Shown here: positions 1-36,057 of the stretch, one piece after another
Layout: every line of letters begins with the position of its first letter
Numbering within the stretch: the stretch's first letter is position 1
Origin: a virus
Reading direction: 5' to 3' (one strand)
DNA: 36,057 nt
IMG/VR virus record: IMGVR_UViG_3300029309_000124
Location: 1-36,057 of that record
Position numbers and translations under genes: made by a program
Notes under the pieces: generated by a model
Seen by the model: the letters and a program-made list of their open reading frames with translations, nothing else
Databases searched by the model: none
What the model was told of the DNA's origin: nothing

Positions 1-614
1 ATGTTGTCAAGTGGAAAGAGTAACTTTTCTGAACTATCTTCTAAATGTCCGAGTCCGAGAGTAGTTATCCTAGATATCTCCTTCGAGGTATGATGTTCGC
101 CAAAGACTGGATCAACATTTTTAGAAAAGTTATTCATGTGTAACGCTGAATAGTAATAGTGGTTTACTTGATCATAATACTCCTTGATTGAGCCATGACC
201 AAAATTCTCTAGTGTTAACTCATTATCAAATAGGATCATTTCATCTATCATACCGGAACGAGTAAATTCTTGTAGCACGTTAAAGTGTACTCGGTTTCTT
301 TTCTTGGCCTCCGAGGAAAGATAATCAAGTTCCGGCACTATATAACAAACTGTCGTTCTAAGCTCCTTGAGAGGCTCTAGAATGCGTAGAATAGCACCAG
401 ACACCTTACCACTACCGCACGTAATTACAAGGGCTTCTTTGTGCTTTTTTGACCATGTTTTTGGTGGCTTATATTCTATCTGATCATAGCCTTCAACGGT
501 TTCACACTTATCAATGCCTTTTCCTCCATCAAGAAGAACAACTTGATATGTCTTGTGTTTTTTAAACAGTTTTGCAACAGCACAACCAGCGTTTCCAAGT
601 CCGATAACTACCAT
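1..614 (-). CDS. Divergent tubulin/FtsZ-like protein, 3' end outside the window
   Basis: The frame is open from the ATG at 614 to the window edge: 204 residues visible, C-terminus missing. GGAGAAG precedes the ATG, which overlaps the polymerase stop (ATGGTAG), so the two are translationally coupled. The sequence follows FtsZ/tubulin order: 'VVIGLGNAGCAV' (3-14) as the T1-loop region; 'ALVITCGSGKVSGAIL' (61-76) where FtsZ has its GGGTGTG loop; 'TTVCYIVP' (87-94) for the next strand; 'FNVLQEFTRSGMIDEMILFDNELTLE' (111-136, in part) matching the FtsZ helix and PND strand; and 'SRITTLGLG' (181-189) at the end of the GTPase domain. The T4 loop is degenerate, so nucleotide use may differ. A plain Rossmann dinucleotide-binding protein (GLGNAG) is the alternative. 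Confidence 0.6.
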   Translation of the reverse strand, partial: MVVIGLGNAGCAVAKLFKKHKTYQVVLLDGGKGIDKCETVEGYDQIEYKPPKTWSKKHKEALVITCGSGKVSGAILRILEPLKELRTTVCYIVPELDYLSSEAKKRNRVHFNVLQEFTRSGMIDEMILFDNELTLENFGHGSIKEYYDQVNHYYYSALHMNNFSKNVDPVFGEHHTSKEISRITTLGLGHLEDSSEKLLFPLDN

Positions 615-1795
615 TCTAACTTCTCCATGCTTCCAAGGTCTCTACCAATGTGGACAGAGGACATAAATTGTCCGAGTTTTGTATCTTCAAAGATCTCTTT
701 TAACTGTGGGATGATTTGACGATCCTCAAAAGACAAATCAATTATTACACAATCATGAATTGTAAATGCAACATGAGATTTGGTTCCTTTGAGAAATTTG
801 TTAATCTTATTCACCCTATCCATGCAATTATCACTTGACGTGGACTGCAGTAGATAATTTAGTGCGTGAAATCTATCACACTCAATCACTCTCCCGAAGG
901 GAGTACGTATGGCGCCTTCTCTAAAGTATTCTTCCAATACGTTTTCTCGAGAGTAGAAATCTGATTGAATTGTCGTTGATCTTTCATTATACAACCAAGC
1001 AAAGAATCTAGTCTTGGCATCTTCTCTTGTTCCTTTTTTAAAGATTTCTTTTCTGTTGAACTCATGTATATCCTCCTGGGGTTGGTTTTGTTTTGATAGC
1101 GAAATCAGTGTTCTAATCTCGGCAGCATTGAAATCTAATTCAATAAAGACATCGTTCGTTGGTCTTACGATGTCTTTTAGCTCTGTTTTTAGGTTCATTA
1201 TAGGAAAAGAACCGGGTTTTGTGGTTAATCGACCGGTTACAGAGCCAAACAGGTCATAGTTTACAAAAATATTTTTTTGTTCTCCAAAGTTTTTCCAAAG
1301 AGTGCGTGCCTTAAAGTCTGTGTTCTTGTAGTTGTACAATTTATGCTTGTTGATGTTAAGCTTTCTCTCCGAAATGTCCTGTATTGTCCGGTATGTGTCG
1401 TGCAAATGTCTATAGTTACTTGGTTTCTCGTAATTATCTCGAATCCATTCGCAAATATCATTTCTGCACTCATAATAGTGCTGTAGATGTTTGTCCGGCA
1501 CTAAATCATAAAAACAAATGTCCGATAAATTTATTTTTGCTTGCCTAAACGAGTTGAAATGACCTCTGATTTTCTTTTCTGAGTTTTCGTATCTCTTTTT
1601 CAAGTGTTCAGGGCATACATCGGTTATATTCTTGCCTTGCACCCATAAATAAAAATATGTAATGTCTTTTTCGCTGAGCTTTTCGTTATAGTTCCAAGTG
1701 TGCGAAAGCTTTTTTGGAAAGTTTTCATAATAAAATTGTCCTTCTGCGTAAATCGCAAAGCATTCACGCTTATCATCCATGACCTGAAAGATCAT
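608..1795 (-). CDS. Minimal family-A DNA polymerase core (PolA-like, no exonuclease domain)
   Basis: A 395-residue protein with the family-A polymerase motifs in order: 'GSVTGRLTT' (184-192); motif A 'DFNAAEIR' with Asp221, Glu226, Arg228; motif B (O-helix) with Arg257, Lys261, Phe265 and Tyr269 in the canonical R-x3-K-x3-F-x3-Y spacing; 'RTPFGR' (297-302); motif C 'IHDC' with His347 and Asp348. E. coli Pol I motif C is HDE, so the Glu is Cys here, but both metal-binding Asp residues are kept. No 3'-5' or 5'-3' exonuclease domain fits in the N-terminal 180 residues. Pol I has 928 residues and T7 polymerase 704. It starts at ATG with GGAGG upstream, sits behind baseplate genes, and overlaps the tubulin-like gene by 7 nt. 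It is probably active in a special synthesis or repair task. Confidence 0.88.
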   Translation of the reverse strand: MIFQVMDDKRECFAIYAEGQFYYENFPKKLSHTWNYNEKLSEKDITYFYLWVQGKNITDVCPEHLKKRYENSEKKIRGHFNSFRQAKINLSDICFYDLVPDKHLQHYYECRNDICEWIRDNYEKPSNYRHLHDTYRTIQDISERKLNINKHKLYNYKNTDFKARTLWKNFGEQKNIFVNYDLFGSVTGRLTTKPGSFPIMNLKTELKDIVRPTNDVFIELDFNAAEIRTLISLSKQNQPQEDIHEFNRKEIFKKGTREDAKTRFFAWLYNERSTTIQSDFYSRENVLEEYFREGAIRTPFGRVIECDRFHALNYLLQSTSSDNCMDRVNKINKFLKGTKSHVAFTIHDCVIIDLSFEDRQIIPQLKEIFEDTKLGQFMSSVHIGRDLGSMEKLEW

Positions 1796-1840
1796 ATTGC
1801 CTCCGTTTTGTGTCCTAAAATGAATGTATCACGATTGGAT

Positions 1841-3040
1841 TTATAAGTCAAGGTCTTTTTGTTGTTTTTTTAGTAATTCTGATAGTGTTCCCGATTTTTC
1901 CAAGTATCGTGCTCGAAATTGATCATCTATGTACTGAACTGCTTGCTGTTGATTGATTTTTGCTAATCGAAGTGCAGTTTGGATCACTATATTTAATTCC
2001 GCGTCTGTGTATGTTGATTGTTCTTCTATATTCCTTATTATAATATATAATTTAATAATATTATTATTATATAATTCTATGTTTGTTATTCTGGTTCTTT
2101 TAATTACTTCAGACCTTATGTTATTACCACAAACAATTGTATTTCTTTTTAGATTATTAACATTAACAAAATAATTGTAATCTTGAAATAATAAATCTTT
2201 AATAATATCAATATCTTGTAAGGCAATTCTATTATATTGTTTTGAAAAAACAGAATTAACAGTTGACAAGTTATATTTTCCACGATATAATTTCATGGTG
2301 GGATTTTGTAAGTCTGCAACGATAACAAACGGAACTCTTTTGTTAATACTAAAGCCGTACTGTTTAGCTAAGTTCAGATAGTAACCAAATGATAGGCTAT
2401 CCAAAAAAGAACTTTGCTTTTGTTCATCGTCATCATACGGAAGCCCTGCTATGTCCAATGCTAAACCAGAGTAAAATATACTGCTTTTGTTGGACTTCAT
2501 AAAATTAGAGTAAGATAGTGGAAAAGCACCCTTCATTCTCTCCATAAAAAGGACTAACTCATGCAAATAATCTTCAAAAGAATTAATTCTGTCTTTAACT
2601 TTTGGTAAATGACCAACGGAAAAAGTTGAAATCAACTCATCAACATACTGATTGTATGCAATGCGAGGATTAGAATATCCTTTAACTGGTCGTAGGGTTG
2701 ATAAAAACGGATCTTCATTATCAATAAGACCCAGACGGCAAGCTTGTATGTAATGTTGCTCAAAGTCATTAAAAGCATCAACAACAAAATTCATCGCTGA
2801 TATTTCATTTGTTGTGTTATTGGAGGAAAGAATAGGTTTAATAAAATCAGTAATAGGCTCAGCAGCATTTAGTTGTCTATCAACTCTACCATAATAAGTC
2901 CTCTCAACAAAGTGAAAGTCTACAACCTGCTCAGGTCCAAGGCCACCATTCTCAGGGAATGCCTGGGTATCATACTTTGCTCTTTCAAAAGCTAATCTAG
3001 CGATTGATTTTATTTTATTTTTTCCTTTAAACTCAGACAT
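1841..3040 (-). CDS. Putative baseplate-associated structural protein
   Basis: A 399-residue protein, 3 nt downstream of the giant hub-like gene and thus in the same unit. It is mostly helical with no membrane segment. Segments such as 'VVDFHFVERTYYGRVDRQLN', 'DEDPFLST'-like acidic turns and 'RVPFVIVADLQNPTMKLYRG' give no recognised family. A strongly AT-rich stretch (plus-strand about 2035-2260) encodes an Asn/Ile-rich segment, 'IELYNNNIIKLYIIIRNI'. The C-terminus is a charged helix (SELLKKQQKDLDL). By position it may be a wedge or hub partner, but this is a guess. Confidence 0.72.
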   Translation of the reverse strand: MSEFKGKNKIKSIARLAFERAKYDTQAFPENGGLGPEQVVDFHFVERTYYGRVDRQLNAAEPITDFIKPILSSNNTTNEISAMNFVVDAFNDFEQHYIQACRLGLIDNEDPFLSTLRPVKGYSNPRIAYNQYVDELISTFSVGHLPKVKDRINSFEDYLHELVLFMERMKGAFPLSYSNFMKSNKSSIFYSGLALDIAGLPYDDDEQKQSSFLDSLSFGYYLNLAKQYGFSINKRVPFVIVADLQNPTMKLYRGKYNLSTVNSVFSKQYNRIALQDIDIIKDLLFQDYNYFVNVNNLKRNTIVCGNNIRSEVIKRTRITNIELYNNNIIKLYIIIRNIEEQSTYTDAELNIVIQTALRLAKINQQQAVQYIDDQFRARYLEKSGTLSELLKKQQKDLDL

Positions 3041-27262: not shown

Positions 27263-29845
27263 TTAGACAATCTGCCACATACCGCCGAAGTAAACGAGGG
27301 TAAGAGCTGATTCTTCGTTAAGCTCAATGCTCATCTCAGAATCGATCATCTCGCCACCGTTACCACGAACGACAACATCAGCAGCATCAAATGCACCACC
27401 GACTTTAGCGTGCTTGATAACAAGAGTCTTGCCTGGAACACCAGCTGGAAGTTCAAGGTCAAAGCCCATTGCTCCAGTTGGGGCAGAAGCAGAATCAACA
27501 CCAGCAACGAACACGTAGTGTGCATTAGCTGGAACGTTGAACATACCACCCATAGCCATACCACCATCGATCATAGCGATAGTAGAGACCATTCCTTGCT
27601 CACGAGCTACCATACGAGCATCCATTGCAGACTCGTTAGAAGCTTCAAGAGAAGCAAGTGCATCAATGTTAGACTGAAGGGTCGCTTCAGCAGCCATTGC
27701 GCGTGCTTCTTCGTCGCTGATAGCAACTGTAAGAACACCTTCTGCAGCAACAGCACGGTTTTCTTCAGCGTCGATTGCATCACCAAGAGCATTCTCAGCA
27801 GTAGTTGCACGAGTGACCTCAGCAGTGAGGTTTTGCTCGATTACAGTTTCAGCAGCGATTCTGTTAGAAGTTTCGGTTGCAAGATCAGCAGCGATTGCAT
27901 TTTCAGCAGCAGTTGCACGAGAAACTTCAGACGCAAGGTTAGAAGTCAATACACCTTCTGCAGCAAGAGCACGGGTCTCTTCAGCAGCGATATCTGCAGA
28001 GTTAGCAGCAACGTCACCGTCGATTCTAACAACTTCAGCATCAAACTTACCTTCGATACGACCTTCTTCACCTTGAGCACGAGAAACTTCAGACGCAAGG
28101 TTAGAAGTCAATGTTGCTTCAGCACCTTCCGCACGAGCTTGCTCAGCATCTACGTCAGCACCACGATCAAGGATTTCTTGATCAAGAGCAGCTTGAAGAC
28201 CAGCTTCAGCAGCTTGAGCGCGCGCAGTTTCAGCAGCAAGATCAGATGAGTGAACACCAAGAGCAGCAGTTACTGCAGCGTTGAGGTCAGAGTCAGCTGT
28301 TTGGAATGCATTAACGATCTCAGTAAGAGAGTCAAGAGCAGCTGGATCAACGTTAGAAAGAATATCGTTGATTTGTCCTTGAAGACCTGCTTCAGCACCA
28401 AGAGCACGGGTCTCTTCAGCGTTGATAGCGTTTGTGAGAGCTTGCTCAGCAGCCATTGCACGGTTCTTCTCAGTAAGAACAGAACCAGAAAGAACACCAT
28501 CAGCAGCATCCATATCAGAACGCAAGGCATCAATATTAGACTGAAGGGTGCTATCTGCAGATGAACGAGCAGAAGCCTCTGCAGTTACAGCAGCTTGACG
28601 ATCAGAAACTTCTTGAGCCAAACCAGAAGTCAATGTTGACTCAGCAGCAGTTGCTCTAGAAACCTCAGAAGCCAAATCAGCAGTCAAAACACCTTCAGCT
28701 GCTTGAGCGCGAGCGATTTCAGCAGAAAGATTGTTTTCAATTACAGTTTCAGCAGCGATTCTGTTTGCAGTTTCAGCATCCAATTCGCCATGAATTTCGT
28801 TGATAGCACCAACAAGATTAAGCTTAACACCGGTATCAAGAGTAGAAAGATCACCATCAGCAGCAGCGCGAGCAGCAGCTTCAGCGTTATCAGCAGCGAT
28901 ACGTGCAGATTCTTCAGCAGAAACAGCAGAAATACGTGCAGCTTCTTCAGAATCGATGTTTCCTTGAAGAACACCCTCAGCAGTAGTAGCACGACTGTTC
29001 TCTGAAGAGATAGCAGCAGCATTTGCAGACTCAGCTGCTTGTGCGCGTGCGATTTCTGCGTCAAGACCAGCTTGAAGGCCAGCTTCTGCAGTTTGAGCAC
29101 GAGACTCTTCTGAAGATACAAGACCTTCGATACGAGCTTCTTCAGCTACCGCACGGTTTTCTTCAGCATCAATTGCATCACCAAGAAGGTTATCAGCAGA
29201 GATACGAGCAGCTTCTTCAGCAGCAATATCAGCAGAGTTAGATGCGATATCGCCAGCGTTTGCTTGCTCAGCAGCAGTTGCACGAGCAATTTCTGCAGCC
29301 AACTCAGAAGTGTGTTGACCAAGAACTGCAGTGATGGATGCCTGAAGGTCACCATCAGCAGATTGGAATGCGCTTACGATTTCAGTAAGAGAATCGAGAG
29401 CAGATGGGTCAGTGTTAGACAAGATGTCGTTAATTTGACTTTGAAGAGAAGCATCGCCAGCAATACGTGCAGCTTCTTCAGCATCAATCAAACCTTCAAG
29501 AACAGTCTCAGCAGAGATTCTGTTAGAAGTTTCAGTAGCAAGATCAGAAGTCAAAACGCCTTCTGCTGCTTGGGCACGAGCGATTTCAGCATCAAGACCA
29601 GCTTGAAGACCAGCATCACCAGATTCCATAGCACCTTTAACCGAAGCAAGTGCAGCTTCCTGAACAAGACGGTCACCGGTGGTTGAGAGTTGAGAGTCGT
29701 CGTTTACACGAACGTCACTCTTAATTTCGCTGATAGCATCAACGGTTTTGTTTGGTAACTTAAGTGCGCCATCGGCAGCGGCCCCAGCATCAATCTGAGC
29801 ATCGCCTTTGACTACAAGTTTACCTTTAAGTACTTTATAAGACAT
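27263..29845 (-). CDS. Long Ala-rich coiled-coil fibre protein
   Basis: An 860-residue protein dominated by heptad-like repeats around 'EIARAQAAEGVL', 'ATETSNRIAAETVIE' and 'IDAEENRAVAAE' from about residue 75 to 735, as expected of a long trimeric coiled-coil fibre. A distinct block beginning 'QINDILSN(T/V)DP' and containing 'ALDSLTEIV' occurs twice, near residues 137 and 490, interrupting the repeats about 350 residues apart. The N-terminus (1-65) is not repetitive and may anchor the fibre. The last 100 residues form a beta domain with 'FDLELPAGVPGKTLVIKH' and a final 'YFGGMWQIV', similar in plan to the C-terminus of the preceding 662-aa protein. It is followed by a strong terminator. Tail fibre is the simplest reading; a head fibre is possible given the position. 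Confidence 0.8.
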   Translation of the reverse strand: MSYKVLKGKLVVKGDAQIDAGAAADGALKLPNKTVDAISEIKSDVRVNDDSQLSTTGDRLVQEAALASVKGAMESGDAGLQAGLDAEIARAQAAEGVLTSDLATETSNRISAETVLEGLIDAEEAARIAGDASLQSQINDILSNTDPSALDSLTEIVSAFQSADGDLQASITAVLGQHTSELAAEIARATAAEQANAGDIASNSADIAAEEAARISADNLLGDAIDAEENRAVAEEARIEGLVSSEESRAQTAEAGLQAGLDAEIARAQAAESANAAAISSENSRATTAEGVLQGNIDSEEAARISAVSAEESARIAADNAEAAARAAADGDLSTLDTGVKLNLVGAINEIHGELDAETANRIAAETVIENNLSAEIARAQAAEGVLTADLASEVSRATAAESTLTSGLAQEVSDRQAAVTAEASARSSADSTLQSNIDALRSDMDAADGVLSGSVLTEKNRAMAAEQALTNAINAEETRALGAEAGLQGQINDILSNVDPAALDSLTEIVNAFQTADSDLNAAVTAALGVHSSDLAAETARAQAAEAGLQAALDQEILDRGADVDAEQARAEGAEATLTSNLASEVSRAQGEEGRIEGKFDAEVVRIDGDVAANSADIAAEETRALAAEGVLTSNLASEVSRATAAENAIAADLATETSNRIAAETVIEQNLTAEVTRATTAENALGDAIDAEENRAVAAEGVLTVAISDEEARAMAAEATLQSNIDALASLEASNESAMDARMVAREQGMVSTIAMIDGGMAMGGMFNVPANAHYVFVAGVDSASAPTGAMGFDLELPAGVPGKTLVIKHAKVGGAFDAADVVVRGNGGEMIDSEMSIELNEESALTLVYFGGMWQIV
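27600..29650 (-). repeat. Degenerate in-gene repeats encoding the coiled coil
   Basis: The DNA repeats variants of segments such as 'TCAGCAGCAAGAT', 'CGAGCGATTTCAGC' and 'AACACCTTCTGC' (plus-strand view) many times within the 860-aa fibre gene. They are diverged copies in coding frame, not direct repeats with unique spacers, and could recombine to change fibre length. Confidence 0.75.
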
Positions 29846-35587: not shown

Positions 35588-36057
35588 TCACTGTAATCCG
35601 TAAGTTATCAAGAACCATAGGTCACGATCAAAATAATCTTTTTCTATGTGTTCTTCACTTTTACCAAAAAACTTTATTTCTACTGGGATTGGCTTATTGG
35701 TTTGACACCCTAGTCGTATGCGATGGTTGCCCTCATACACTCTGGCTATGATATCATCGTCTTTCCATTCGGCAACAATAAGTATGGGGTTTTCTATTCC
35801 CTTTTTAGCAACGTCGGCTTTGAGTGCTTGCCATTTGTCAAAATCATAACGACCGGTTCCTAGCCCAGAACCTCGCCTGAAGCCTCTTTCATGTTCCCCT
35901 TTCTTGCCTTTCATTCTTGTAATTGGACCACCGTTGTCCTTACAGATAGCAAAGCCTCTGTATGTCGCGGTTAAATGCTGGTTGTCTTTTTCTGTATGAT
36001 GCCCAGGGTGTTTTTCTAATTTACCCTCAAACTCTTTGTTTTCATTTAGAAACTTAC
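35588..36057 (-). CDS. ParB/sulfiredoxin-fold-like protein, 5' end outside the window
   Basis: The frame is open through the right edge of the window, so the N-terminus is missing. An ATG at 35914 exists, but nothing like a Shine-Dalgarno site precedes it and 47 upstream codons are open, so I treat the gene as truncated. The visible part ends with a segment reading 'YEGNHRIRLG' followed by 'PIPVEIKFF'. That resembles the GNHR/G(E)HR box of ParB-like nuclease-fold domains, where it forms part of a nucleotide-binding site. A Gly/Arg-rich stretch (GFRRGSGLGTGRY) precedes it. The stop codon overlaps the ribosome-binding site of the next gene, so the two are probably co-transcribed. The fold assignment rests on this short motif only; whether it binds DNA or nucleotide is unknown. 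Confidence 0.6.
   Translation of the reverse strand, partial: KFLNENKEFEGKLEKHPGHHTEKDNQHLTATYRGFAICKDNGGPITRMKGKKGEHERGFRRGSGLGTGRYDFDKWQALKADVAKKGIENPILIVAEWKDDDIIARVYEGNHRIRLGCQTNKPIPVEIKFFGKSEEHIEKDYFDRDLWFLITYGLQ

Follow-up and report, generated by a model that had tools for sequence, protein, structure and literature searches.

What is the gene that runs off the end of this viral contig, and what would a T4-like phage use it for? The window, meaning the whole stretch of DNA analyzed here, comprises positions 1 to 36,057 of IMG/VR record IMGVR_UViG_3300029309_000124. On its minus strand, a frame starts with ATG, runs for 204 codons and is still open where the contig stops. A sequence-only reading had taken it for a divergent tubulin/FtsZ-like gene in a T4-type phage. 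Until now, phage tubulins have been described chiefly in phiKZ-like jumbo phages and in a small number of plasmid-like phages.

The gene and its relatives

The FtsZ-like motif order claimed for the 204 visible residues is present in full: GLGNAG (residues 5–10), GSGKVSG (67–73), MIDEMILFDNELTLENFG, which forms the S6-T6-H6 segment, and TTLGLG, the T-x2-G-x-G element. The missing part of the gene was recovered from contig L006, the start of which overlaps the window end exactly over 239 bp. Three close relatives (L002, L003 and L004; 84–86% identical) carry complete genes of 268 aa. The relevant features of the window are:

3..614, minus strand: tubulin/FtsZ-superfamily gene, truncated by the contig end after 204 of about 268 codons
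5..10, minus strand: −35 hexamer TTGACA in codons 202–204 (LDN), with the −10 on L006 (exact match at L006:230-258)
608..614, minus strand: 7 bp shared by the end of the polymerase gene and the start of the tubulin-like gene, from frame coordinates
608..1795, minus strand: 395-aa DNA polymerase domain of family A, scoring slightly below the PF00476 cut-off (E 2e-8) and matching phrog_17 (E 4e-17)
1821..1851, minus strand: early-type promoter-like site TTGACT-N17-TACATT with one mismatch, upstream of the polymerase and tubulin-like genes
1841..3040, minus strand: conserved 399-aa gene, function not known, upstream of the polymerase in related loci

Single-sequence searches of Pfam, PHROGs, PDB sequences and INPHARED gave no clear relative, nor did bacterial genomes searched with a close alignment. 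Iterated scans of IMG/VR with growing alignments gathered at least 319 relatives, from which 116 distinct full-length proteins from many metagenomes were aligned as the conservation set (median length 269; pairwise identity median 38%, minimum 24%). Residues G5, G7, G67, L76, Q115, R119 and N131 are invariant in all 116, and the preservation of these positions across so many distinct proteins indicates more than a chance frame. L007–L010, weak matches of the first scan, match an unrelated protein and were rejected as relatives. A "bacterial" match in a WOR-3 MAG "chromosome" (CP070664.1, L111) was likewise rejected as a host clue: it is a phage replication fragment with the tubulin-like gene, flanked by N runs, and probably arose through faulty scaffolding or binning. 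The family has no entry in Pfam, PHROG, NCBIfam or INPHARED (cultured phages). The Pfam tubulin/FtsZ model PF00091 matches 5 of 44 members below its cut-off (best E 0.0058), and none of seven family contigs is positive. The proposal of a new branch of the superfamily is thus supported; the gene is a previously unlisted, reduced phage branch of the tubulin/FtsZ family, in a large group of uncultured aquatic viruses.

Predicted fold and guanine site

An AlphaFold model of the L003 protein, built with 44 aligned sequences, has a pLDDT of 92.8 and a pTM of 0.91. Its 50 best Foldseek matches in the PDB are all FtsZ, TubZ or CetZ (E 1.9e-10, TMq mostly 0.6–0.7). A separate model of L091, from the most divergent clade (32% identical to L003; pLDDT 88.9), retrieves only FtsZ and TubZ in its top 50 (E 8e-13, TMq up to 0.72). 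In a viral structure library, two proteins of uncultured phages that are annotated as FtsZ rank first, and PhuZ of Noxifer is among the weaker matches that follow. Profile comparison agrees: aligned by hhalign to a 7-sequence FtsZ or a 13-sequence FtsZ+PhuZ profile, the family profile gives P values from 2e-3 down to 1e-4, and in each of four hhalign settings the observed score exceeds those of all 300 column shuffles. Against single FtsZ sequences, hhalign scores do not rise above the E. coli protein background, with MurD and LpxC scoring equally, so only the shuffle-controlled profile–profile results are used here. Membership of the tubulin/FtsZ superfamily is, on these predicted folds, close to certain.

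The alternative that the protein is a Rossmann-type NAD(P)- or FAD-binding protein, FtsZ-like only at its glycine loop, draws on weak Pfam matches around the glycine loops (PF03435, best E 1e-4; TrkA_N, 7e-4), but these are mostly short stretches under the Pfam cut-off. The top 50 structural matches of both models are all FtsZ, TubZ or CetZ, the T6 Asn and the H7 Asn/Asp position are kept in 116 of 116 relatives, and the completed gene encodes both H7 (148–165) and a C-terminal domain (S7–S10). As far as prediction allows, the Rossmann reading is already refuted, and we regard it as extremely improbable.

Named by analogy to FtsZ and numbered on the L003 model, the elements of the protein, with window coordinates where these apply, are:

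S1 2–6, H1 7–19, S2 24–30 and a shortened S3/H3 region 31–59: N-terminal elements (AlphaFold)
S4 60–66, T4 67–73, H4 70–82, S5 86–93, T5 94–100 and H5 101–119: middle elements (AlphaFold)
S6 125–130, T6 N131, H6 131–138 and H7 148–165: T6/H7 elements (AlphaFold)
Coil, S7 183–189, S8 207–215, H10 216–238, S9 242–250 and S10 255–262: C-terminal elements (AlphaFold)
585..602, minus strand: T1 phosphate loop GLGNAG, residues 5–10 (G5 and G7 116/116, G10 114/116)
396..416, minus strand: altered T4 loop GSGKVSG, residues 67–73, in the hhalign register (G67 116/116, K70 100/116)
330..335, minus strand: T5 loop Pro94 and acidic residue 95 (P94 112/116, D/E95 115/116)
222..224, minus strand: T6 guanine-contact Asn131, aligned with E. 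coli FtsZ N165 (116/116)
162..176, minus strand: H7 Tyr147 (base stacking) to Asn151 (guanine contact), corresponding to E. coli FtsZ F182 and N186

The T1 glycine loop of the family reads GxGxAG, and the guanine-site positions of H7 are kept, with Tyr or Phe at 147 in 113 of 116 relatives and Asn or Asp at 151 in all of them; the Bacillus FtsZ in the alignment has Asp at this position. The Gly-rich T4 loop had been described as lost. It is altered, with the 116 relatives reading G-[SA]-[GS]-K-[VI]-[SA]-[GA] and not the canonical GGGTG[ST]G, but it is not lost entirely, as three Gly positions are kept in 75–100% of relatives.

Several elements of canonical tubulins are missing. The family has no counterpart of the T3 loop (GAGANP) and the protein no C-terminal tail; H8 and H9 are absent from both AlphaFold models, residues 166–182 being non-helical in the model. 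No acid is invariant at positions 164–180 among the 116 relatives, where a T7 acid would be expected (D/E in 46/116 at 170 and 59/116 at 168). Some acid does occur within 165–174 in 100 of 116, and a displaced T7 acid may lie there. Tubulin, FtsZ and phiKZ TubZ build their common protofilament contact from the T7 loop, S9 and the base of H8 (PMC3678025). Lacking H8 and a fixed T7 acid, the phage protein must depart from canonical tubulins in its subunit interface and GTP hydrolysis, and assembly, if any, should differ too.

Genomic neighborhood and promoter motifs

The gene had been placed behind structural genes, which is not quite so: it adjoins the family-A DNA polymerase upstream and replication genes downstream. 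Wherever contigs are long enough, the order is a large tail-region protein, the 399-aa protein, the polymerase and the tubulin-like gene, usually followed by an 85-aa WYL_2-like protein (a weak match), gp32, UvsX, an optional PurA-like gene, a 5′ exonuclease and DnaB. For the window's own locus, gp32, UvsX, the exonuclease and DnaB were read on L006. Among loci fetched with the polymerase, the best 80 of more than 593 matches, all 75 with at least 1 kb downstream carry the tubulin-like gene and five are too short, so that the gene looks core in the sampled polymerase lineage. The two genes overlap by a few bases in about half of these loci, and the 7-bp overlap in the window likely reflects translational coupling. 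The place of the tubulin-like gene beside a DNA polymerase suggests that its product helps to copy or position the viral genome and not to build the particle.

Some of the neighbors merit description in their own right. The polymerase is very divergent and stand-alone; no exonuclease domain was found in its 395 aa, and INPHARED gives only a weak partial match (E 7e-3). Between UvsX and the exonuclease, some members carry a 334-aa adenylosuccinate-synthetase-like gene (L002:4616-5620, L005:3440-4444, L060, L063, L069, L072). It is short like phage PurZ, matches PurA models best and PurZ less well (E 9e-32, below the cut-off), and a link to modified adenine is possible. A GmrSD_N-type (DUF262-like) gene lies between gp32 and UvsX in some relatives (L016:8411-9634, L015:2757-3944).

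The peptide F-x-L-D-N-I-T-E-T-x-Y-I (residues 200–211; LDNITETCYI here) is among the best conserved of the family, and its DNA reads as a sigma70-type promoter, TTGACA-N17-TATATT, inside the gene. The codons of L202-D203-N204 contain an exact TTGACA in 102 of 116 genes, and in most of those Y210-I211 reads TATATT, TATTAT or TACATT exactly 17 nt downstream. Codon bias was compared in 46 divergent representatives (below 70% identity): 41 of 44 use CTT for Leu202, against a background of 28%, and 39 of 39 use GAC for Asp203, against 38%. These are the two strongest biases among 52 conserved columns; codons for the conserved Leu76, Asn131 and Asn151 are mixed. The same DNA, CTTGACAAC-N15-TATATT, recurs in nearby intergenic positions. 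With its 17-nt spacer, the motif was counted 133 times on the gene strand and 9 times on the opposite strand in 341 kb of related loci. This part of the gene thus probably doubles as coding sequence and as a promoter for the 85-aa gene and gp32. Given the extreme codon constraint of this embedded promoter, LDNITETCYI should not be read as a catalytic site; D203, at first weighed with E207 as a substitute catalytic acid, was dropped after the promoter was found. More generally, the case warns that strong peptide conservation can have DNA reasons.

This strong early-type promoter family, CTTGACA-N15-TGTTATATTAT with a 17-nt spacer, in which TGTTATATTAT is the extended −10, lies upstream of replication genes in most related loci (L003:1358-1386; L033:6605/6810/6976/7340; L016:6605/6985/7359/10940). 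It falls repeatedly within the 3′ ends of coding genes, as in the tubulin-like gene and close to where the 399-aa gene stops. Such early-type motifs are almost lacking from the remaining, structural part of the window, and from their placement the tubulin-like gene would be an early, replication-class gene. Neighborhood and promoters together point to a gene of the replication module and not of the virion; as proposed from the sequence alone, it may do a different job.

The T4-type assignment of the carrier holds, since the window encodes a T4-like gp23 capsid protein. Mel-JY01, immuto and RM378 are among its nearest cultured matches, suggesting the Far-T4 group (PMC4360716); the carrier is T4-like, with a probably Far-T4-like capsid, and not phiKZ-like. 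The phiKZ chimallin (gp54) was not found in five long, possibly incomplete contigs, in a search that recovered the phiKZ positive control. Flavobacterium phage immuto and Microcystis phage Mel-JY01 have the same cassette order without the tubulin-like gene, which is also absent from RM378 and two huge phages, in searches whose positive controls matched. A 428-aa gene between polymerase and gp32 in Mel-JY01 was considered as a tubulin and rejected, as it matches a SAM-lyase family. The words tubulin and FtsZ are absent from the main text of three papers on the Far-T4 group. The promoter type known from Bacteroidetes is TTTG/TAnnTTTG. Promoters of the related loci look instead like ordinary sigma70 promoters, which sits badly with Flavobacteriales as predicted Far-T4 hosts unless a sigma factor is phage-borne. 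Elsewhere in the window, a 155-aa open-ended frame with a ParB-like "EGNHR" stretch and no Pfam match lies beside prohead protease genes (35588..36055), and an 860-aa tail-fibre-like protein (27263..29845) consists of many degenerate "AEIARAQAAEG" repeats, of which the large plus-strand antisense frames there look like shadows.

Function and comparison with known tubulin-type systems

The best-studied proteins of the tubulin fold act as GTP-dependent polymers, with phage examples among them (PMC4244570, PMC3678025). We tentatively favor, at slightly less than an even chance, a reduced phage tubulin that binds GTP or GDP, is made early with the DNA polymerase and assembles to hold, position or segregate replicating DNA. 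Nucleotide would be bound through T1, the altered T4, T6 and H7; expression would be early and together with the polymerase; self-assembly, or assembly on the replisome, would be nucleotide-dependent and non-canonical; and the assembly would handle replicating phage DNA in a manner PhuZ/TubZ-like in purpose. Support comes from the fold (by prediction), profile homology, the guanine-site residues, core status in the sampled polymerase lineage, the replication linkage and the early-type promoter motifs, which flank the gene but scarcely occur among the structural genes of the window. Against it stand the absence from both models of the H8 part of the protofilament contact, the lack of a C-terminal tail, and the lack of a TubR-like neighbor, of an iteron array (five loci) and of chimallin.

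The same missing elements can be read otherwise. An early protein could bind host FtsZ through the top (nucleotide) face, which it retains, and, for want of a lower face (T7/H8) of its own, cap or poison Z-ring filaments without polymerizing. The loss of H8 and of the M-loop/H9 region, the variable T7, the early-type promoters and a profile and fold closer to FtsZ/TubZ than to PhuZ are all consistent with such a mimic, and inhibitors of FtsZ are known from phages, P1 Icd and lambda Kil being examples (PMC11897509, PMC9372555). These are, however, small unrelated peptides, and an inhibitor need neither be fixed in a replication operon nor keep a full guanine pocket across relatives only 24% identical; we consider the mimic a serious but rather unlikely rival. 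Less likely still, though a serious rival too, is a nucleotide-sensing accessory subunit of the polymerase or of the gp32/UvsX machinery, a GTP/dGTP switch without filaments. In its favor, every one of the 75 testable loci selected by the polymerase has the gene downstream, frequently with a short overlap, T3 and the catalytic loops are reduced, and the polymerase, a bare 395-aa domain, could need a partner; but co-operonic position alone does not show binding, and immuto and Mel-JY01 have the cassette order without the gene. It is interesting to speculate, although we hold this doubtful, that a tubulin-fold protein without the canonical protofilament interface (no H8, fixed T7 acid or T3) is an obligate GTP-controlled replisome partner, in a clade where one DNA stretch both encodes its C-terminal domain and provides a promoter for the replication genes that follow. 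A reduced tubulin serving as a core replication gene in a T4-like clade that is widespread and uncultured would broaden the superfamily, offer a near-minimal tubulin for asking which parts GTP binding and assembly need, and open the cell biology of these aquatic phages to testing.

With FtsZ of E. coli, S. aureus and others, the phage protein shares the fold, the order T1-T4-T5-T6-H6-H7-S7..S10, the guanine-site Asn at T6, the Asn/Asp and aromatic residues on H7, and an in-register profile alignment of up to 264 columns. It differs in its identity of about 12%, its 268 residues versus a core of more than 300 in FtsZ, its T4 loop (GSGKVSG), its lack of T3 (GAGANP), H8/H9 and C-terminal tail, and its location in a phage replication operon. 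TubZ of Bacillus plasmids is a fold match of equal rank (PDB 4ei7, 2xka), but the phage protein is much shorter; no TubR-like adaptor was found adjacent, nor, in five loci, an iteron array near the gene. PhuZ of phiKZ-like jumbo phages is likewise a phage-encoded tubulin-fold protein, yet its sequence link is not detectable (hhalign P 0.15) and its match in the viral library is weaker (E 2e-4); the carriers here are T4-like phages without chimallin, on contigs of up to 192 kb, and the protein has no long tail. The best viral fold matches, BFVD A0A6J5RW92 and A0A8S5UFG9 (annotated "FtsZ" or "cell division protein", from uncultured tailed phages; TMq 0.73 and 0.67), are 452 and 387 aa long and about 10% identical. 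The family is not filed under FtsZ, TubZ or PhuZ, as it departs from these in T4 signature, T7/H8 region and context. The divergent FtsZ-like families of Makarova and Koonin (2010), with changes around T6-T7 and in the C-terminal domain, are in contrast cellular and lie in other operons (PMC2875224), and FtsZl1 lacks the T6-H7 elements that the phage family keeps.
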